64,000 nt of DNA, from NCBI GenBank assembly GCA_958295935.1, contig OY282385.1, forward strand, positions 310,001-374,000, read 5' to 3'. Below are positions 6,381 to 33,947 of this stretch, in pieces. The position numbers were made by a program, and so were the translations under genes. Source of the stretch: an uncultured Dehalococcoidia bacterium (lineage in GTDB: Bacteria > Chloroflexota > Dehalococcoidia > Lucifugimonadales > Lucifugimonadaceae). A model generated the notes under the pieces. That model was not told the origin of the DNA, searched no databases, and saw nothing but the letters and a program-made list of their open reading frames with translations. Positions within the stretch are counted from its first letter, which is position 1, and the number at the start of each line of letters is the position of its first letter.

Positions 6381-7475
6381 ATGAACGCAAAAGGCCAAGA
6401 CATACAACGGCTCATGCGAAAGCACCTGGTCGAGGTAGCGACCTATTCCGGCGTGGACCCTTCCGAGGAACTGGCGCGCTCAGCCGGCATCAGCCCGGAT
6501 GAGGTGATACGGCTGAACGCAAATGAAAACCCGTACGGGGCGCCGCACGAGGTGGTCGAGGCTCTAAGCGGATTGACGCTTCACCTATACCCCGACCCGG
6601 AACAGCGCCGCCTGAGAAAAGAGATCGCCGCATACACCGGGCAGCCCGTCGAAAGGGTCGTCGCTGGCGCTGGCGGAGACGAAATCATCGAACTACTGCT
6701 ACGCCTGTTCGTAGAACCTGGGGAAACCGTGATCGACTGCGATCCGACGTTCGGCATGTACAGCTTCTCCGCACGGGTCGCCGCAGCCGAACTCGTATCC
6801 ATTCCACGCCGAGACGACTGGTCCATAGACCTGGAAGCAATCGCATACGCGGCACAGAACAGCGCCAAGATCCTCTTCCTCGCCTCTCCGAATAACCCCA
6901 CAGGCAACTCCGTAACCGAGCGGGAGGCTATCCAGTTGCTGGAGATGGGCCTGATAGTGGCCATTGACGAGACTTACTACGAATTCTCCGGTAACACTCT
7001 GGCGCACCTGATCGGAGACTACGACAACCTGACCATACTGAGATCGTTCTCCAAATGGGCCGGCATAGCCGGCCTGCGCGTCGGATACGCCATCGGATCG
7101 GAAACGCTGGTGCGCCACCTCATAGACATAAAGCAGCCCTACAACGTCAACGTGGCCGCAGAGGCCGCCGCCATAACCGCGATGCGAATTTCACGTCGAC
7201 TGCTGGAAAGGGCTGATTCTCTGGTCCAACAGCGGCGGCGAATCGAGCGGGCCATCGACGGCATACCGGAAATGTCTTACTACCCGTCCGAAGGAAACTT
7301 CCTGCTCTGCCGCTTCGAACGAAAACAGTCGAGACAGGCATACGAAGAACTGGCGCGGCGCGGCGTGTTCGTGAGACTCTTTTCACACCCCAGGCTTGAA
7401 AAGTGCTTGAGAATCAGCTCTGGCACGCCGGAACAGACCGGCAAGCTCCTGGAGGCATTGGCGGATATTGCCTGA
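6381..7475 (+). CDS. hisC: Histidinol-phosphate aminotransferase
   Basis: PLP-dependent fold-type I aminotransferase converting imidazole-acetol phosphate to histidinol phosphate. The 364-residue product shows LNANENPYG near residue 45, SPNNPTGN around 170, IDETYYEF, and the PLP-lysine motif LRSFSKWAGIAGLRVGYAIG around 215-235. It follows hisD by five bases, so the two are surely cotranscribed. Length and motifs are normal for HisC; Dehalococcoidia-type HisC may also serve other aromatic substrates, which cannot be judged here. Confidence 0.94.
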   Translation: MNAKGQDIQRLMRKHLVEVATYSGVDPSEELARSAGISPDEVIRLNANENPYGAPHEVVEALSGLTLHLYPDPEQRRLRKEIAAYTGQPVERVVAGAGGDEIIELLLRLFVEPGETVIDCDPTFGMYSFSARVAAAELVSIPRRDDWSIDLEAIAYAAQNSAKILFLASPNNPTGNSVTEREAIQLLEMGLIVAIDETYYEFSGNTLAHLIGDYDNLTILRSFSKWAGIAGLRVGYAIGSETLVRHLIDIKQPYNVNVAAEAAAITAMRISRRLLERADSLVQQRRRIERAIDGIPEMSYYPSEGNFLLCRFERKQSRQAYEELARRGVFVRLFSHPRLEKCLRISSGTPEQTGKLLEALADIA

Positions 7476-7501
7476 GCGGTTTCCTGATCGAGGGTAGAGA
7501 A

Positions 7502-8116
7502 GTGTCAGATCAAAGAGCGCAGCCTGCGCGGGTAGGATCGGTCAAACGCGAAACCGGGGAAAGCTCAGTCTCGGTGACCGTCAACCTCGACGGATCGGGC
7601 AGGGCGGACGTCGAATCGCCCGTGGGTTTCATGAACCACATGCTGGCCCAGATAGCGCGGCACGGAATGGTCGACCTGACCGTCAGAGCCGCGGGTGACG
7701 TCGAAACCGGTTCCCACCACACCGCAGAGGACACTGCCATCGTCCTGGGCCGCGCCATCGACAAGGCCCTCGGCGAGCGGCTTGGCATAGTGCGAATGGC
7801 AAATACCCTCGTGCCCCTGGATGAAGCCCTGGCGCAAGTGGCTCTGGATCTCAGCGGTAGAGGCTACGCGGTGGTGGACATGGCCTCCACGAACAACCTG
7901 GGCGAGTTTCCAGCGGACATGGCGAGGCACTTCTTCGAGGCTATGGCAATCGAGGGGCGATTCAATCTGCACCTCAGAGTTCTCGCAGGGCTGAACGAGC
8001 ACCACGTGATAGAGGCCTCATTCAAGGCCTTCGCACGAGCATTGCGCGCAGCCTCAGCCATGGACGAGCGCGGGCAGGGCAGGGCGCCCAGCACCAAGGA
8101 CACTCTGTCTGTCTAG
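7502..8116 (+). CDS. hisB: Imidazoleglycerol-phosphate dehydratase
   Basis: Manganese-dependent dehydratase of histidine synthesis. The metal-binding repeats are HHTAED after GDVETGS, and NEHHVIEASFKAFARAL near the C terminus. The frame is open further upstream into hisC, but the GTG at 7502 gives a 204-residue protein, close to the usual 195-200, 26 bases after the hisC stop. It has only the IGPD domain; the phosphatase domain found in the E. coli bifunctional HisB is absent, so another histidinol-phosphatase is needed. It ends the operon, its TAG overlapping the convergent purS stop. hisH, hisA, hisF and hisIE are not in this window. Confidence 0.95.
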   Translation: MSDQRAQPARVGSVKRETGESSVSVTVNLDGSGRADVESPVGFMNHMLAQIARHGMVDLTVRAAGDVETGSHHTAEDTAIVLGRAIDKALGERLGIVRMANTLVPLDEALAQVALDLSGRGYAVVDMASTNNLGEFPADMARHFFEAMAIEGRFNLHLRVLAGLNEHHVIEASFKAFARALRAASAMDERGQGRAPSTKDTLSV

Positions 8117-12053: not shown

Positions 12054-13331
12054 TCAGACAGGCGCGCCCACGGCGCGGCCGGCAACGTCCGTTCGGTAAT
12101 GGGCTCGATCGAACTTGATGGCGCGCACTGAGTCGTAGGCGCGCGCCCGCGCCTCCGAGAGGTCAGCGCCGGAACCGGTCACAGCCAATACTCTGCCGCC
12201 GGAAGTGACTATACCGCCCTCGGGCGTCGACGCGGTGCCGGCATGGAACACCAGGGCTGAAGCGGCAGCCGATTCCAAACCGGTAATTGGATCGCCTGTG
12301 GCATAGCGCCCCGGATAACCGCCCGAAGCCATCACCACGGCAACGTGCGCGCGGCCATCCCAGACGACCTCGACGTCTTCCAGCCTGCCCTCCGCGGTAG
12401 CCGCGCAAACGTCGACGAGATCCGTGGCAAGGCGCGGCAAGACAACCTGAGTCTCCGGGTCTCCAAAGCGGCAGTTGAACTCGATCACCTTCGGACCTTC
12501 CAACGTGACCATCAGCCCGGCGTATATCACGCCCTGGTATGGGCAGCCCTCTGCAACCATGGCACGCGCCGTAGGCTCCAGGATTTGGCGGCGAACCAAA
12601 CCGGCCAGGTCGTCCGTCCAGAACTCGGGAGGTGAATAGGCCCCCATGCCGCCTGTGTTCGGCCCCCTGTCTCCATCGTATACCCGCTTGTAGTCACAGG
12701 CCGCAACCTCGGCAGATACCTTCGTCCCGTCCACGAATGCAAAGACGCTCACCTCCACGCCGCTCAGACGCTCTTCTACTACTACGGTAGAACCCGCCTT
12801 TCCGAATGCGCCTCCCATCATGCTGGACACGGCGCGCTCCGCTTCCCCCTTGGTCGTAGGCAGCACGACGCCTTTCCCACCGGCCAGCCCGTCGGCCTTG
12901 ATTACGGCCGCGCCCTCCGGCATCGACCTGATGTACCTGTGCGCAGGCGCCGCCGAGTGAAACGTCTTGTGCTCCGCGGTGGGAATGCCGTGACGCCGCA
13001 TAAGATCCTTCGCCCACGCCTTGGACGACTCTATGCGGGCAGCGGATGCGGTTGGACCAAAGACCTTGATACCGGCCGCAGATAGCTCATCGGCAAGGCC
13101 GGCCTCAAGCGGCGCCTCCGGCCCGACCACGACCAAATCTACGCGATGATCGAGCGCGGCCCTAACCACCCCCGGAACGTCCTCGGCCGCCGTGTTGGGC
13201 AGGTTACGGGCCAACGCGCCTATGCCCGGATTGCCCGGCGCAGCAAGCAGACGGTACACCGACTTGCTCCGGCTCAGCTTCCAGGCCAGCGCATGCTCCC
13301 GACCGCCGGAACCTACGAGCAGTACTTTCAC
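12054..13331 (-). CDS. purD: Phosphoribosylamine-glycine ligase
   Basis: GAR synthetase of the purine pathway, an ATP-grasp enzyme of 425 residues. Visible parts are [19 protein letters not shown] at the N terminus, [32 protein letters not shown] of the ATP-grasp A domain, and [18 protein letters not shown], the metal-binding stretch. It lies 27 bases after guaA on the same strand. Length and motifs are normal. Confidence 0.96.
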
Positions 13332-13358
13332 GTCAGATCGCCCGATCCTCAGCTGCGC

Positions 13359-15032
13359 TTATTCCCACTCTATGGTTCCGGGGGGCTTGCTCGTAATGTC
13401 GTACACCACCCGGTTTACAGAGGGGACCTCGTTGACGATTCGGGAGGAGATGCGGCCAAGAGTGTCGTAGGGCAGCCGCGCCCAGTCCGCGGTCATCGCG
13501 TCATTGCTGGAGACGGCTCGAATAGCGACCACGTGTTGGTACGTGCGCCGGTCCCCCATCACCCCCACGGTTCGCGTGTTGGTGAGCACGGCGAAAGCCT
13601 GCCACAATTGCTGATACAGCCGGTCCCTCTTCACCTCGTCGATCACTATCCAGTCGCAGGCCCGTAACGTCTCCAGCTTCTCAGCGGTCACTTCTCCAAT
13701 GATCCGTATGGCAAGGCCAGGCCCCGGAAAAGGCTGACGGTTCAGGACCTCCGACGACAGCCCCAGCTCCGCTCCTGCCAGCCTGACCTCATCCTTGAAC
13801 AGGTACCTCAGCGGCTCCACCAACTGTAAGTCCATCCTCTCAGGCAGCCCGCCGACGTTGTGATGCGTCTTGATCTTGTGAGAGGCGGTAGATTCGGAGG
13901 TCTTGCTCTCGATCACGTCCGGGTAGAGAGTTCCCTGCGCGAGAAAATCCACCTCCCCCAGCTCCTGAGCCTTCTCCTCGAATACGCGGATGAACTCGTT
14001 GCCTATTCGCTTGCGCTTCTCCTCGGGATCCGTAACCCGCGCCAGAGAGGACAGAAACCTCTCTACCGCGTCCACGTATATCAACTTGAGGCCCAGATTG
14101 CGCGCGAACAGGTCTCTCACACGCTGCGGCTCCTCCAGGCGCATCAGGCCGTTGTCAACGAAGATGCAGGTGAGCCGGTCGCCTATGGCTCTATTGATCA
14201 GCGCCGCGGCTACGGTGGAGTCGACCCCGCCCGAAAGTGCGCAGATGACTCGTCCACCATCCACCTGAGCGCGGATGTGCTCCACCGCGTCGTTCACGAA
14301 ATTCGAGGGCGTCCAGGTTCCCTGGCATCCACAGACCCCGTACACGAAGTTGCGAATGATCTCAGCACCCTGAGGAGTATGGGCCACCTCCGGGTGGAAC
14401 TGGATGCCGAACATGCCGCGGCCGTTTCCCATGACGGCGATTGGAGAATGCTCGGAGGAAGCGAGAACGCTAAACCCCGGCGGAGTCTCGTCGATGCGGT
14501 CGCCATGGCTCATCCAGACGGGCACGGAGTCGTCAAGCCCATCGAGCAATCCACCGCCCAATCCGATGCGGCGCAGAACCGAATATCCATACTCTCTGGC
14601 CGTACCTCGCGCCACCGCTCCACCCAGTTGGTGCGCAAGCAGTTGCATGCCGTAGCAGATGCCCAGCACAGGGACCCCGGAATCGAAAACCCAGCCCGGC
14701 ACCATGGGAGCGCCGGGCTCGTACACACTTCCAGGACCGCCGGACAACACGATCCCGCGCACGTCCTGCTCATCGAGGATCTGCCCCTCGGCTGTATGAG
14801 GGATGATCTCGCAATAGACGTTCGCTTCTCGAACGCGGCGCGCTATGAGTTGGCTGTACTGAGAGCCGAAGTCGATTACTACGATGCTCTGGGTCTTGGT
14901 CGGCGAGCGCCCGGAAGGCTGCGCAGAGGCGCCGGCGCGCTCGCTCTGGGCTATCTCCAGATATGTCCCAACCTCGATGTCGTCAGAGGTCGAAACGCGG
15001 TGTGTGGAGGGCTTCCCCGAGAGCTCGTACAT
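13359..15032 (-). CDS. guaA: GMP synthase (glutamine-hydrolysing)
   Basis: Converts XMP to GMP. The N-terminal class I glutamine amidotransferase domain starts at [20 protein letters not shown] and has the nucleophile Cys in [15 protein letters not shown] and His-Glu in QFHPEV. The synthetase part has the PP-loop [12 protein letters not shown], and the dimerisation domain ends GTIEWE. At 557 residues it is ~45 longer than usual, because the only clear start, ATG at 15032, gives an N-terminal tail of about 48 residues with no family match. No strong ribosome binding site precedes it, so the real start may be a downstream non-ATG codon. It is the first gene of the minus-strand purine cluster. 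Confidence 0.95.
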
Positions 15033-25215: not shown

Positions 25216-25683
25216 ATGAACGACGAACCGGCGAAACTGATCGCCTCGAACCGGCGCGCCAGACGAAACTACGAGATCCTCGATACCGTAGAGGCAGGGA
25301 TCGCTCTCACAGGCGCCGAGATCAAGTCCGTGCGTCAGGGGCGCGTGAACATCGCAGAGGCCTATGCAAGGGTGAGAAACCGCGAAATGATCATGATGAA
25401 CATGCACGTCTCGCCCTACAAAGGCGCAAGCCACTACTCCCAGGAGCTCGATCCGGCCCGACCAAGGAAACTGCTCCTACATCGATCCCAGATCCGATAT
25501 TTCGGGCTAGAGGCGGACCGACAAAGGCTAACCATCATCCCCCTCCGCCTCTACATCCGCAATCACCGCGCAAAGGTAGAAATCGCCCTCGCGAGAGGAA
25601 AACGCAGCCACGACCAACGGGAGACGATACGCCGGCGAGACGCTGAACGAGAGATGGCCCGCGCCTCGAGACGCAGCGCATGA
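25216..25683 (+). CDS. smpB: SsrA-binding protein SmpB
   Basis: RNA-binding partner of tmRNA in trans-translation. The 155-residue product has IASNRRARRNYEILDTVEAGIALTG near the N terminus, EIKSVRQGRVNI, HVSPYKGASHYSQE, and RPRKLLLHRSQI, then a basic C-terminal tail with RRRDAEREMAR. The tail folds in the ribosomal A site. It lies directly upstream of the tmRNA gene, a frequent arrangement. Confidence 0.96.
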   Translation: MNDEPAKLIASNRRARRNYEILDTVEAGIALTGAEIKSVRQGRVNIAEAYARVRNREMIMMNMHVSPYKGASHYSQELDPARPRKLLLHRSQIRYFGLEADRQRLTIIPLRLYIRNHRAKVEIALARGKRSHDQRETIRRRDAEREMARASRRSA

Positions 25684-25751
25684 GACAGGCGGAACTGACG
25701 CCCGCCCTGCCCCGCTCACGAAAACGCGGTCAAGGGAAAAATACTGCACCC

Positions 25752-25780
25752 TGTCCACGTGAGCGGTAAAACGCTATGAT
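25752..25780 (+). promoter_or_regulatory. Candidate promoter of the tmRNA gene
   Basis: TATGAT at 25775-25780 is a good -10 element about 17 bases before the mature tmRNA 5' end. The best -35 match, at 25752-25757, is poor (TGTCCA). Transcription would start near 25787, giving a short leader removed by RNase P. Confidence 0.4.
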
Positions 25781-25796
25781 TAAGGGACGTGACTTT

Positions 25797-26149
25797 GGGG
25801 ACGCGTGGATTCGACAGGGAGGAATTCTGCAAGATCGCGGGCCGAGGATGCTGCCAACCTCGTTAATCAGGCGGCAATGAAAGTAACTGGCGACAACGAA
25901 CTCGCCTACGCTGCCTAAAGGGCAGCGTCGTCTCCCCGCTCCTTACCCTGGGTGGAGCGGACGAGGCGCCGACAATCCGGGGTGCGTTTCCGGCGACGCC
26001 GATAGCCGGCAACCAAGACACTCGGCTGGCCGTTGTGAAAACCGCCGGTGGGAACAGCAGCGGCAAGAACCATTCCGTCGGATACGCCCGTAGAAGTCGA
26101 AGCGGAACCCTCCCTGGACGGGGAGTTCGACCCTCCCCCGTCTCCACCA
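25797..26149 (+). ncRNA. ssrA: tmRNA (SsrA), tag GDNELAYAA
   Basis: One-piece tmRNA of 353 bases. The 5' GGGGACG (25797-25803) pairs with CGTCTCC near the 3' end, followed by an encoded CCA ending at 26149. The T arm (GGGAG-TTCGACC-CTCCC) and the 5' GTGGATTCGACA element are clear. The resume codon is GGC at 25889, after AGTAACT, and the reading frame GGC GAC AAC GAA CTC GCC TAC GCT GCC ends at TAA 25916-25918, encoding GDNELAYAA. Thus the tag starts with Gly rather than the common Ala. It releases ribosomes stalled on broken mRNA and marks the product for proteolysis, working with SmpB encoded just upstream. Confidence 0.95.
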
Positions 26150-26395
26150 AAGTTTCATTACCCGAGGAAATCGGGGCGCAGCCAGACCGGTCCACGACGC
26201 GACCACTGAACGCCCCGCCGCATTCCCCACTAGATTCTAGAAATCTGAACCCGTCCATCCAGCCCCGTAACACTTGCCCCGCGAGGCCCCCGCGCCCGTT
26301 CGCACGGTGGTATAAATTTGCCATCCGCCCGTAGCTCGCAAAGCCGGCTGCACGAGGCCGGATCCATAACCCCGCCACCTAAGGAGAGCGATCTC
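26150..26395. other. Intergenic region between ssrA and the selenoprotein gene
   Basis: No gene is supported in these 246 bases. The frames that stay open are Arg/Pro-rich shadows. The end of the region holds the ribosome binding site AAGGAGAG (about 26381-26388) of the following gene. No T-rich terminator for ssrA is obvious. Confidence 0.5.
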
Positions 26396-28081
26396 ATGTA
26401 CGAACTGGAAGTACTCAACCCGGTTTCCCCGCAGCAGGGAGAAGTCAGCGCATTCCCATACGCCCCCCGTCCTGCCAGCCTCGATGGCAAAGTCCTCGGC
26501 CTGATGTGGAACGGCAAAGCACACGGAGACGACGCACTGAAAAGGGCCGGCGAGTTGATCCGGCAGAAGGCGCCAACCGTAGACGTCCGCTTCTACTCCG
26601 GCGCCCTGCCCTTCCCAGACCCCACTCGAAACAAGGCCATATCGGAGATAGACGCAGCCATCGGATGTACCGCCGACTGAGGGTCATGCACGTCGTGGCT
26701 TGTCTACGACATGGTCGAGTTGGAGAAGGCCGGTATACCGACCGCCATCATACTTTCCGACGGTTTCCAGCACGACGCCGACGCAAGCGCACGCGCCTTC
26801 GGCATGGGGCCAATACCGCGCGTCGAGGTCCCCAAGGTCTACAACAACATCACGACCGCCGAGGCCCGAGGACAGACCGAACCCGTCGTACCGCAGCTCA
26901 TCGAACTGCTCACTAGGCAGATGACGGGCGAGGACCTCGAAGAGGCCGCCATACAGGCCGCCCAGTCCAGGAGGGAAATATTCCAGGGTGAAGACCCGTT
27001 CGACGCCCTCGATGCCTTCAACGAGGCCTTCCTCAGCAGGGATTGGGGAGACGGATTCCCCCTCATTCCTCCCACGCACGCACGCGTCGAACACATGCTC
27101 ACCGGGTCCTCCATGGACCCGGACGAGATCGTCTGCAAACTGCCCCCAGGCAACGGAATGGTCACCGTGCAGAAGGTCGCAACAAACTGCGTAATGGCAG
27201 GCTGCAGACCGGAACACCTCCCCGTGGTCCTCGCAGCCTGCCGGGCCATATCACAAATGGACCCCTTCGCCGCACGCGGCCTGCTCATGTCCACCAGCGC
27301 CGGCGCGCCTCTCATCCTGGTCAATGGACCCATTAGAGAGGAAATAGGCCTGAATTCGAAACGCGCCGCGCTCGGACCAGGCAAACTCTCAAGGGTCAAC
27401 GTCGCAATAGGCAGAGCCTTTACGCTCACCCTGAAGAACGGAGGACACTGGTACCCGGGCGTGCTCGACATGGACACCATAGGCACACCCCGCAAGTTCA
27501 GCCTCTGCGTGGCAGAGAACGAAGAGCACACCCCGTGGGAACCGTGGCACGTCGAGCAAGGATTCGACCCCGAACAAAGCACGGTCACGATATTCCCCAC
27601 CGGCGGAGAACACGACCACGGAAACCAGGGCGTCGACACCCCGGACGGCCTACTGAGGTCTATCGCCAGCGGCATCGGAAGGGGCGGAGGATACATCGCA
27701 GACCTGCAGGGAGAGCATGACCGAACCGCGCCCGGAGAAATACGCAGCGGAGGCGGAACCCTGATACTCATCGCCCCGGCCCACGCTCAACCAATAGCCC
27801 AGGGAGGCTTCAGCAAGGCCGCAGCCAAGGAGTTCATACACCACCACGTAAACGTGCCCGCAAGCAAGCCGATGAGCCACTTCAACGTTCCTGACAAGGT
27901 ACGCTTTCAGTACCGATGGCTATACGACCTGACCGAATCAGAACGCGAAAAGGTCATGCTCCCAGGACACCTCCACGCAGGCGCATACCACCTGGTATGC
28001 GTTGGAGCAAACGACCGCGCCAAGAACTTGATCATCGGCTCCGGGGATGCGTCGATAGTGGAGATAACCCACCGAAACTGA
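26396..28081 (+). CDS. UGSC-motif selenoprotein (in-frame TGA decoded as Sec)
   Basis: The gene starts at ATG 26396 after a strong AAGGAGAG site and meets TGA at 26678-26680. Reading straight on in the same frame continues without a stop to 28081, giving 561 residues with Sec95 in ...CTAD-Sec-GSCTSW. Sec-Gly-Ser-Cys is the motif that defines the UGSC (seleno)protein family, known from marine metagenomes. The motif is followed by VYDMVELEKAGIPTAII, typical of the same domain (residues 1-~190). A hairpin just past TGA fits a bacterial SECIS. Residues ~205-561 form a second conserved-looking domain of unknown function (DWGDGFPLIPPT; NCVMAGCRPEHLPVVLAACRA). A redox role for Sec95/Cys98 is inferred. 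Treating this as two genes would leave the second without a ribosome binding site. Confidence 0.9.
26692..26710 (+). promoter_or_regulatory. Candidate bacterial SECIS element
   Basis: GTCGT (26692-26696) pairs with ACGAC (26706-26710) and encloses the loop GGCTTGTCT; an inner G-T/G-C extension is possible. The loop-opening G at 26697 lies 17 bases after the TGA, inside the 16-37 base window known for bacterial SECIS elements, where a G in the first loop positions is needed for SelB binding. An outer CA/TG pair separated by a C-A mismatch may lengthen the stem. Confidence 0.65.
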
Positions 28082-31046: not shown

Positions 31047-33947
31047 CTACAGCCGCCGGTTGGATACCACAGGCTCCGAGGCCAACAGGCCGCGCAGCGT
31101 CCGCAGATCGGGCAGCCCCAGGATCCTGGAAACGCCCGCGTCCACGCGTATTCGAGCCGGACAACGCGCCATGCCCGGCAGCCGATCGAACTCGTACTCT
31201 GCCAGCTCGTCGAACAGGTTGGACAGCCCATGAAGCTGCGAGGCCGAAATGGCCCGCAGGTCCACGACGGGCAACGATCTGAGATCGGCCTTCTTGAACT
31301 TCACCCAATTGCCCTGCGTGGTGTTGCGAATGGAGAGCAGGGCCAACAAACCGGCGCTGCTGTTGAGCCAGACCGCGATAGCCCTGTCCCAAACGTAGCT
31401 ATCGCTCTTGACCGGCCACCAAACGTTGGACAGAACCGGCGCGTCGGTACACATAGCCGCGACTCTGGCCGTATTCAGCCTAAGACGTTCCGCTATGAGA
31501 AGCCGCCCCGCCCGCTGCCATAGCTGGTCAGCTGATTTGAGACGGCGGCCACGGCGCGCCTCGACAAGCGGGGCCAGATACCTGTCAGATTGGGTCGCCA
31601 TGCATCTGCGAGCCATAGTGTCGTTGCCTTCCACCATCGGGTACGCCGTCACCGTACCCGTAGGCTCAAACCCGTCTCGAACGTCTCGCACGTCAGGCCC
31701 AATCCGCCCGATCTCCTGGAGCTGGCACAAAGGAACCTTGGAAGCCGCTGCCTCCCCCGGTACCCACGTCTCGCCGTCATCCAGCAGGCGCATCGCGCTG
31801 CGGATTACGTCCGCGCGGGCGAACTGCACGCCGGCCCACTTCCTCCCGGCGAACTTCGATTCAGGAATCGAAACCACCTCCCCGACGTGACGGCCATCAA
31901 CTTCCAGAAGCGCCGCTCCCCTGCCCTCCAGTCTCGCCGGGATAGTTGACGCAACGGCCTGAGCCGTGCGGTGGGCGTCCAGAACGCCATCCGGATTCCT
32001 CCAGAGATTGACGAACGTAGTGCGCTGCTCTGAGTCAGCCTCCTTCTCAGACCGGCGCGTAGCGATCAACAGGGCCTCCGACAGGTCGGTGCTGTCCGAG
32101 AAGTTCCAACGCAACGGGTCGTGGGACGCAACCACCACGTCCAGCGAGAAATCACGCTCGATGAGCCGGCGCGTCTGCTCCCACGCCGGGCCGGTGCACA
32201 CGGTGAGCGGCAACACCAAGGCCAGACGACCCTCGCCGGAGCGCAATTTGGGCGAGGCCGCCGCCACGAAAGCCGCGCCCAGGCCGGCCGTAGCCGAAGC
32301 CTGCATCGACTTCAGGCGGCGAGATAGCTCGTTCTGAAGTTCCCGCCGCTCCGAAGAAGGCAAACTGCCGAACAACAGATTGCCTCCCACAGACCGGGTG
32401 AAAGGCGGATTCATGATCGCCAGATCCAAGTCCGGCAGCGTAGCCGTAACACCCTCCGACGCGCCGCGAGAGCCGCCGCCGGACACTTTCCGCGCATCCT
32501 GTGCAACAACCCCTACCCCTTCAGGGGACAAGGCGAATTGCACCGCCGACTCGTCACGCCCCAAGAAATCCAGCGAACCCAACGACACGTTCGATCCGCT
32601 CACGCCCAGCGGCATCACGTATAGGTTCATGCGGTCGAACTGTATGTCGGGATTGAGCATCGCCAGGCTGGTGGCCGCAAAATGCACCGCAGAAAGCTGC
32701 ACGTCGTACCCATGCAGAGCCTGCTCCACCATCACCTTGTGGAGAGCCGGAGCGTTCTGCCCGCCCGCCTGCTTGTGAAGACGCTCCACCTCCGAAGCGA
32801 CCGCCATCAGCAGAGTCCCCGTGCCGCACGCCAGGTCCGCCACGTTGAGCGAGCCCGGAAACTCGTAGTCGCCCCAATCCACTCGCGGAGGCCAATCATG
32901 AAACGCCAAACGGGACAGCAGCGTGGCCGCCGGTACAGACGTGTAATACGCGCCGGTGAACTTCGCATCGCTCAACAGAGTATGGAACAACCGACCCGAA
33001 AGGTCGTGACCCTCCAGCTGACGAGTATCCTCCATCGCCCTGATCAGCGGAGCCATGACCGACTCCCGTACCTCGTCCGGCCCGTCAGACAACACGTCGA
33101 GGATGCTCGCCGCCAATTGGAAGACCGGCGCGTAGTCGATGTTGTCGCAAATATCGCGCCAAGCGTCGCGCAAACCGGAATCGCCCTGCCCGCGCGATTC
33201 GCTCACCGTCGCAACGTCAGGGCTCGCAGCAGCCAGCCGGTCCTGGAAGGCAAGAGCATTGAAAAGCACAAGGCAACCAATGCGCAGGGCCGCCGCCCTG
33301 TTCTTTTCCTGATCCGTACTGGCAATGATTTCGGCAACGCGGCGGGATACGCGGGCGTGCCGAGAGATGGCCTTGGACGACCGTTCCAGCGCGTAACCAA
33401 CGACCCCGGCCGCAGCGGCCACCCGGTCCACGCCCTCCAGCTCCAGCGGAAGGGCGCGCAACTGATCGGCAAACTCGACAACTGAGCCCGTCCTGGTGCG
33501 GCGGCCTGCTACAACCGTGCCGCGGGAACCATGCACCCACCATCGAATATCCGAGGCCGCTTCAAGCTCGGCCTGCGTGTTCTCCGAGTAACGCAGCCGG
33601 TCGGGATAGAGAACGCCGAGCAAGCCTATGGCGTCAGGAAAACCCTCCAGCCTGCCATCGAACTGACCCCTCAGACCCTTGTCCGATCCCTCCCACTTGC
33701 ATTCCACCAGTACCGAATCCCCGCCTCTCAACTCGACCCGGATATCTGGAGCCGCCTGCCCCCTGCGGCGTTCGGCCCTGGCGGATATTCCCCGGCCGCG
33801 GAGCAACTGGGCCAGAAGGACGTTTACAGCCTCTTCCCGAACGGTTTCGGAAGCGTTCGATCCGATCCGCCGAGCGGACCCCCTAGCCCTCAAGTTGCCA
33901 ACGCCTCGCTTGCCCGGGAACCGTTCCCCGCCATTCCATTCCCGCAT
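31047..33947 (-). CDS. Type IIG restriction-modification enzyme
   Basis: A single 966-residue protein with endonuclease, methyltransferase and specificity parts. Near the N terminus PD at 67-68 and ECK at 82-84 form a PD-(D/E)xK nuclease site. An adenine-methyltransferase core follows with SAM motif I DLACGTG at 371-377 and catalytic motif IV NPPF at 513-516. The C-terminal ~300 residues would contain target recognition. This layout is that of Type IIG enzymes, which both cut and methylate, so no separate S or R gene is needed. It stands alone on the minus strand, next to the compositionally different protease region. Confidence 0.88.
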   Translation of the reverse strand: MREWNGGERFPGKRGVGNLRARGSARRIGSNASETVREEAVNVLLAQLLRGRGISARAERRRGQAAPDIRVELRGGDSVLVECKWEGSDKGLRGQFDGRLEGFPDAIGLLGVLYPDRLRYSENTQAELEAASDIRWWVHGSRGTVVAGRRTRTGSVVEFADQLRALPLELEGVDRVAAAAGVVGYALERSSKAISRHARVSRRVAEIIASTDQEKNRAAALRIGCLVLFNALAFQDRLAAASPDVATVSESRGQGDSGLRDAWRDICDNIDYAPVFQLAASILDVLSDGPDEVRESVMAPLIRAMEDTRQLEGHDLSGRLFHTLLSDAKFTGAYYTSVPAATLLSRLAFHDWPPRVDWGDYEFPGSLNVADLACGTGTLLMAVASEVERLHKQAGGQNAPALHKVMVEQALHGYDVQLSAVHFAATSLAMLNPDIQFDRMNLYVMPLGVSGSNVSLGSLDFLGRDESAVQFALSPEGVGVVAQDARKVSGGGSRGASEGVTATLPDLDLAIMNPPFTRSVGGNLLFGSLPSSERRELQNELSRRLKSMQASATAGLGAAFVAAASPKLRSGEGRLALVLPLTVCTGPAWEQTRRLIERDFSLDVVVASHDPLRWNFSDSTDLSEALLIATRRSEKEADSEQRTTFVNLWRNPDGVLDAHRTAQAVASTIPARLEGRGAALLEVDGRHVGEVVSIPESKFAGRKWAGVQFARADVIRSAMRLLDDGETWVPGEAAASKVPLCQLQEIGRIGPDVRDVRDGFEPTGTVTAYPMVEGNDTMARRCMATQSDRYLAPLVEARRGRRLKSADQLWQRAGRLLIAERLRLNTARVAAMCTDAPVLSNVWWPVKSDSYVWDRAIAVWLNSSAGLLALLSIRNTTQGNWVKFKKADLRSLPVVDLRAISASQLHGLSNLFDELAEYEFDRLPGMARCPARIRVDAGVSRILGLPDLRTLRGLLASEPVVSNRRL

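Follow-up and report, generated by a model that had tools for sequence, protein, structure and literature searches.

A fused UGSC-family selenoprotein in a Dehalococcoidia genome: a near-constant partner domain, a predicted flavodoxin-like fold and remote kinship with GrdB

Gene structure at the locus

The window analyzed here is a 64,000-nucleotide stretch of the genome of an uncultured Dehalococcoidia bacterium. On its forward strand, a reading frame opens at ATG 26396, reaches an in-frame TGA at 26678–26680, continues through 466 further open codons in the same frame, and ends at a terminal stop, TGA 28079–28081. The junction proposed in an earlier sequence-only reading, in which this TGA links two frames in phase to give a chain of 561 residues with Sec95-Gly-Ser-Cys98, can be seen directly in the sequence: codons 95–98 are TGA-GGG-TCA-TGC, in the protein context TAD-U-GSC-TSW. 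The features of the locus are as follows.

26381–26386, + strand: AAGGAG ribosome-binding site, 9 nt 5′ of the ATG (from sequence)
26396–28081, + strand: joined selenoprotein gene, 561 residues with Sec95 (full-length homology to 79 loci)
26411–26914, + strand: UGSC domain, residues 6–173, predicted parallel alpha/beta (PF24696, 111 bits; AlphaFold2 model)
26678–26680, + strand: TGA codon read as selenocysteine 95 (TGA in 79 of 79 fused loci; Cys in non-Sec relatives)
26687–26689, + strand: codon of the resolving Cys98
26692–26710, + strand: SECIS-like hairpin, GUCGUGG-CUUGU-CUACGAC (94 sequences, alifold consensus)
26711–26713, + strand: internal ATG, the gene-caller start of a separate 456-residue ORF without a ribosome-binding site
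26972–28075, + strand: C-terminal partner domain, about residues 193–560 (505 bits to the A5 profile)

The 3′ half had been described as lacking a ribosome-binding site of its own, and no Shine-Dalgarno-like sequence precedes ATG 26711. Standard gene callers had been expected to report two broken genes; mechanical calling at this locus gave ORFs of 120 and 456 residues, and precisely this misannotation was found in Paracoccus ferrooxidans, where the UGSC gene of plasmid pFER4 is entered as a pair of hypothetical proteins, one on each side of the TGA. On pFER4 (locus L266, regions 7399–7968 and 12371–14146), the split UGSC adjoins a partner gene, and selB lies approximately 4 kb from it. Scanning the selenoprotein gene for sigma-70 promoters and terminators found none. 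An smpB gene with the tmRNA gene directly after it (window 25216–26149) precedes the selenoprotein gene by 247 nt.

Selenocysteine reading of the TGA

When 84,980 species genomes were searched with two peptide patterns omitting the Sec codon, 79 fused loci emerged, mostly from Dehalococcoidia (including SAR202) and other Chloroflexota; the others include two Entotheonella loci and single loci labelled Nitrospinota and Betaproteobacteria. The Sec position is TGA in every one of them. A sequencing error, one of the objections raised in advance, is excluded, since such an error cannot recur in 79 independent assemblies; another objection, that relatives might end at the TGA, fell away as no relative stops there. 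Cysteine takes the place of Sec, as CGSC at the same position, in haloarchaeal, Arthrobacter, Roseovarius, and Variovorax relatives, and the CGSC form is also present in Embleya. Across 350 Chloroflexota genomes, nearly every UGSC domain contains one TGA; in the three long exceptions examined, both redox residues are gone and there is no switch to Cys. UGSC proteins without Sec and the resolving Cys (DTRSGS, DMGVTP, CWGTSP, and DMGTSV) occur at L207 7379–7921, L208 421–945, L206 2302–2823, and L267 7365–9050; that of Vibrio europaeus is partner-fused and sits after genes for aconitase X and the DUF126 protein that accompanies it.

The genome, complete at 2.75 Mb, carries tRNA-Sec (anticodon TCA), selA, selB, and selD, the last itself with an in-frame TGA; the objection that selB and tRNA-Sec might be missing thus fell away as well. 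Among 60 relatives, selB scored above cut-off in 32 of 34 UGSC-bearing genomes versus 16 of 26 UGSC-less ones (Fisher p 0.003). Three relatives (83%, 73%, and 62% identity), all of which have TGA at codon 95, were compared codon by codon. Most changes fall at third positions, before the TGA as well as after it (for example, 42 versus 10 + 10 at the other positions before it, and 185 versus 50 + 28 over residues 201–561), and the same holds over residues 106–561; the ten codons separating the TGA from the internal ATG also show few changes. Selection is therefore purifying on either side of the TGA and acts on one protein, including a stretch that no separate 3′ gene would translate.

The loop of the hairpin begins 18 nt 3′ of the TGA, with conserved core pairs at 26694–26708. 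In 94 different post-TGA sequences, 94.7% of pair cells are standard, as compared to 86% for swaps of the 3′ arm between sequences (2000 trials, maximum 88.3%) and no more than 50% for slid pairings; two-sided, compensatory changes occur in 36 pair cells. The window hairpin sequence folded alone does no better than its shuffles, so that the evidence is comparative, and this comparison points to a SECIS-like hairpin shortly 3′ of the UGA. A window-wide scan for TGA-joined frames, with at least 50 residues on each side and a Cys three residues off, singled out 26396–28081 as the only candidate combining a long tail (466 residues) with a protein-like UxxC, the other six candidates resembling antisense or shadow frames.

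Taken together, the Sec machinery, the invariant TGA, the codon selection, and the covarying hairpin support the assignment of the TGA to selenocysteine, as first proposed, and argue against a true stop that would leave two separate genes or a pseudogene. That alternative, to which the two mechanically called ORFs lend their support, was rejected on TGA conservation and the codon comparison and is regarded as exceedingly improbable. The interval 26396–28081 almost certainly encodes a selenoprotein, a reading that is essentially proven at the level of sequence.

UGSC domain: family and predicted fold

The joined protein matches Pfam PF24696 (UGSC) with 111 bits against a gathering cut-off of 25, over profile positions 2–171 of 172, and thus aligns with the family over the whole domain; it also has the U/C-G-x-C active site, TGA- or Cys-encoded, that marks the family. 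With the NCBIfam equivalog NF041046 it scores 98.7 bits, under the curated cut-off of 125, whereas stand-alone relatives score 134–147. It therefore shares with the ‘UGSC family (seleno)protein’ of PF24696/NF041046 a common UxxC Sec motif and an N-terminal domain aligned end to end, but differs from the members that pass NF041046, which are shorter and stand-alone, in being partner-fused and below cut-off. In a tree of 58 UGSC domains, the window protein falls within a well supported fused clade of 14, and changes between fused and split forms number about five across the tree.

An AlphaFold2 model built with 44 sequences (mean pLDDT 90, pTM 0.90) places Sec95 between strand 87–92 and helix 96–111, at the helix N-terminus. 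Among the matches listed for the model, flavodoxin and flavodiiron domains come closest of the solved structures (Foldseek E about 1e-4), VIA Z scores of 9–12 belong to B12-binding or other Rossmann-like domains, and no thioredoxin fold appears. The UGSC domain is thus predicted to be flavodoxin/Rossmann-like rather than thioredoxin-like, and the thioredoxin fold supposed in 2008 (PMC2398784) has no counterpart among these listed matches. Weak whole-protein phmmer matches to 3no4 (E 0.009) and SoxY (E 0.07) were gone when profiles were used.

C-terminal partner domain

The protein had also been credited with an extra C-terminal domain of ~350 residues. The additional length is confirmed, at about 360 residues (193–560), but the domain is no add-on: it is the usual partner of the family. 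No Pfam or NCBIfam match to it was found, profile searches returned no solved relative, and fold comparison gave nothing below 1e-3 in Foldseek and a best VIA Z of 6.0. Likenesses to class I fumarase, to chorismate mutase, and to the ‘Toblerone’ fold of cyclic amide hydrolase were seen but given no credence.

Among 60 relatives, 66 partner domains were counted, of which 27 are fused to UGSC, 25 lie directly upstream of it, 11 lie directly downstream, and 3 are unpaired; hence 63 of 66 are fused or adjacent, and in many genomes the partner is a stand-alone gene beside UGSC. Counted from the UGSC side, a fused or neighboring partner accompanies 142 of 147 domains, a count biased towards fused forms because many loci were found through the fusion. 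Plasmid loci are paired in 15 of 16 cases, across Actinomycetota, Proteobacteria, and haloarchaea. Constant pairing, in either order as well as by fusion, is strong evidence for a two-part enzyme, and UGSC and its partner very probably constitute one.

Candidatus Lucifugimonas marina JH1073 has both fused and split UGSC forms. The genome under study encodes a second fused UGSC selenoprotein (genome positions 85762–87372), 46% identical to the first and likewise with a TGA. On haloarchaeal plasmids (L271, L274, and L277), two partner copies surround one UGSC in the order partner-UGSC-partner, which hints at a hetero-oligomer.

Kinship with GrdB

UGSC proteins weakly match the GrdB, GrdH, GrdF, and PrdB models over the Sec region (E 1.4e-4 to 0.2). 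With hhalign, UGSC aligned to the GrdB family of its own genome at E 2.6e-7, and the 58 UGSC domains aligned to GrdB over 84 columns with the Sec residues matched to each other (E 1.1e-9); none of 20 unrelated decoy families did better than 3.8e-3, and reversed GrdB gave 0.025. The alignment falls at the Sec region of GrdB, where Sec350 of the 436-residue Clostridium sticklandii protein lies (PMC3091704). By these profile comparisons, a homologous U-G-x-C Sec domain is common to both, the UGSC domain being remotely related to the one at the C-terminus of GrdB, the selenoprotein of glycine reductase. The likeness to GrdB, GrdH, and PrdB comprises a Sec-Gly-x-Cys between strand and helix, followed by an ‘EKAGIP’ strand. 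Against full-length GrdB/PrdB models, UGSC members give fragments only (10–19 bits versus cut-offs of 65–800), and the window protein itself matched none of the GrdB/PrdB models. No solved relative of the GrdB family was found in the PDB by sequence, and no statement of UGSC-GrdB kinship was found in the free full texts consulted.

UGSC lacks the N-terminal 300 residues of GrdB, the GrdB-like stretch being about 85 columns long, and, unlike glycine, betaine, and D-proline reductase, it has no pyruvoyl GrdE/PrdA partner. A GrdE homolog, which the GrdB link had led us to expect in the partner, was rejected at an hhalign probability of 0.5%. UGSC also coexists in genomes with true GrdB/GrdE pairs, including five in the genome under study. 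These five GrdB-family genes (genome positions 538064–539101, 552355–553389, 1305900–1306943, 1652779–1653813, and 2517217–2518254) each reach an in-frame TGA (UGTC or UGSC) and have GrdE-like genes adjoining, forming a set of glycine/betaine-reductase-like selenoenzymes in a relative of SAR202-type Chloroflexota.

Neighboring genes and electron donor

At several loci, UGSC is accompanied by thioredoxin system genes: the Arthrobacter operon reads trxB-trxA-partner-UGSC and the Roseovarius operon partner-UGSC-trxB, trxB lies upstream of the UGSC locus in Variovorax SRS16, and both Haloterrigena and V. boronicumulans have TrxR-like genes with CxxC nearby. The gene in the window has neither trxA nor trxB next to it, and neither recurs around the 79 fused loci. 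In glycine reductase, electrons pass from NADPH to thioredoxin reductase, thioredoxin, GrdA, and GrdB (PMC3091704), and a map of a grd cluster includes trxA (PMC10838667). The Sec-Cys pair of that enzyme is reduced by the thioredoxin system (PMC3091704), and some UGSC operons likewise contain trxB or trxB-trxA; recycling of the UGSC enzyme by thioredoxin is, on this evidence, reasonably probable.

Other UGSC neighbors encode CoA-transferases, acyl-CoA synthetase, acyl-CoA dehydrogenase, and CoA-ester lyase, together with branched-chain-amino-acid-type ABC, TRAP, and TTT transport, circumstantial evidence for a role in organic acid breakdown. The 79 fused loci have no constant neighbor; their scattered catabolic neighbors include a dipeptide-type ABC transporter, a CaiB CoA-transferase, and a 2-hydroxyacid dehydrogenase. 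In the window, tmRNA and smpB lie upstream, and a Zn-type ABC transporter and a Fur-family regulator lie downstream; they are absent among the recurrent neighbors of fused loci and were judged unrelated. A 966-residue protein encoded on the minus strand (window 31047–33947) has an NPPF motif like that of N6-adenine methylases, gave no Pfam match at 1e-5, and is possibly a restriction-modification or BREX-like enzyme.

Discussion

UGSC was named in 2008 in the Global Ocean Sampling study, where it ranked among the commonest selenoproteins with 255 sequences (PMC2398784), and a 2026 review describes most such families as still uncharacterized (PMC13188914). The UGSC/Unknown_1 fusion was published in the same 2008 study (PMC2398784), also as a UGSC selenoprotein with an unknown conserved domain in aquatic microbes, and the C-terminal domain described here is likely identical with Unknown_1. 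The family and the fusion type were thus already known; the GrdB kinship with the predicted fold, the near-constant partner, and the thioredoxin operons are new.

The explanation that best covers these observations, to which we give roughly even odds, is a two-part, thioredoxin-recycled reductase that works like GrdB, probably with a different substrate-activating partner. UGA95 would be decoded by tRNA-Sec and SelB, aided by the hairpin 11–29 nt downstream. Sec95, at its helix N-terminus, would attack a carbon or heteroatom of a substrate bound and activated by the partner, breaking a C-N, C-S, C-O, or C-halogen bond; Cys98 would then form a selenenyl-sulfide with Sec95, to be reopened by thioredoxin and NADPH-thioredoxin reductase. 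The partner would fill the role of GrdE or PrdA, probably without GrdE-type pyruvoyl chemistry, as it has no detectable sequence similarity to GrdE. Bond-breaking chemistry of the GrdB type is put forward tentatively, and the substrate, judged from neighboring genes only, is probably an organic acid or acyl-CoA.

A possible though less favored alternative is that UGSC is a general thiol/selenol oxidoreductase, either a peroxidase or a disulfide reductase, with a thioredoxin-like fold and a C-terminal domain that serves for targeting or as an accessory. Published opinion leans this way (PMC2398784), as do the UxxC motif and the trxB/trxA genes that adjoin in some operons, a Sec beside a Cys with thioredoxin at hand fitting a peroxidase or simple disulfide reductase as well. 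Moreover, a title cited in PMC3091704 reports peroxidase activity of GrdB, so that the oxidoreductase and GrdB-like readings overlap. The predicted parallel alpha/beta sandwich, however, matches flavodoxin and B12-binding domains and, as far as the listed matches go, not thioredoxin, and a free-standing redox protein would leave unexplained why the partner is retained in 63 of 66 cases, to either side of UGSC.

It is unlikely, but conceivable, that the partner is the main enzyme, for instance an organic-acid or acyl-CoA lyase, dehydratase, or hydrolase, and UGSC only its redox switch or protection. The partner has many invariant polar residues (D219, T227, N310, N320, N335, R340, D358, and E374) and a near-invariant C371; the CoA-transferase, CoA-ester lyase, acyl-CoA synthetase/dehydrogenase, TRAP, and TTT genes nearby would suit such an enzyme, as would a faint resemblance to class I fumarase in Foldseek (E 0.0024, probability 0.41) and the fused forms with a degenerate Sec site in Vibrio europaeus and two further genomes (G235 and G236). 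Against this, the fold matches lie under any safe threshold, the VIA optimum included, and both redox residues are seldom lost (about 3 of 84 in Chloroflexota).

If the GrdB-like reading is followed further, UGSC and its partner might represent a third branch of the GrdB/PrdB superfamily, namely, a thioredoxin-recycled Sec/Cys enzyme for C-heteroatom cleavage with a new, non-pyruvoyl activating subunit, found in microbes of the oxic ocean, sponges, and soil rather than in Stickland fermenters; this is a speculative proposal, held no more firmly than the chemistry itself. In the meantime, genome annotation breaks the UGSC fusion gene into two pieces. Candidate sources of the enzyme are JH1073, Roseovarius sp. 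THAF8, and haloarchaea, the Cys form sparing selenoprotein production. Now that UGSC has been given a predicted fold and a superfamily, along with a named partner and a probable electron donor, its function becomes testable, and an orphan selenoprotein family acquires a testable enzyme hypothesis.
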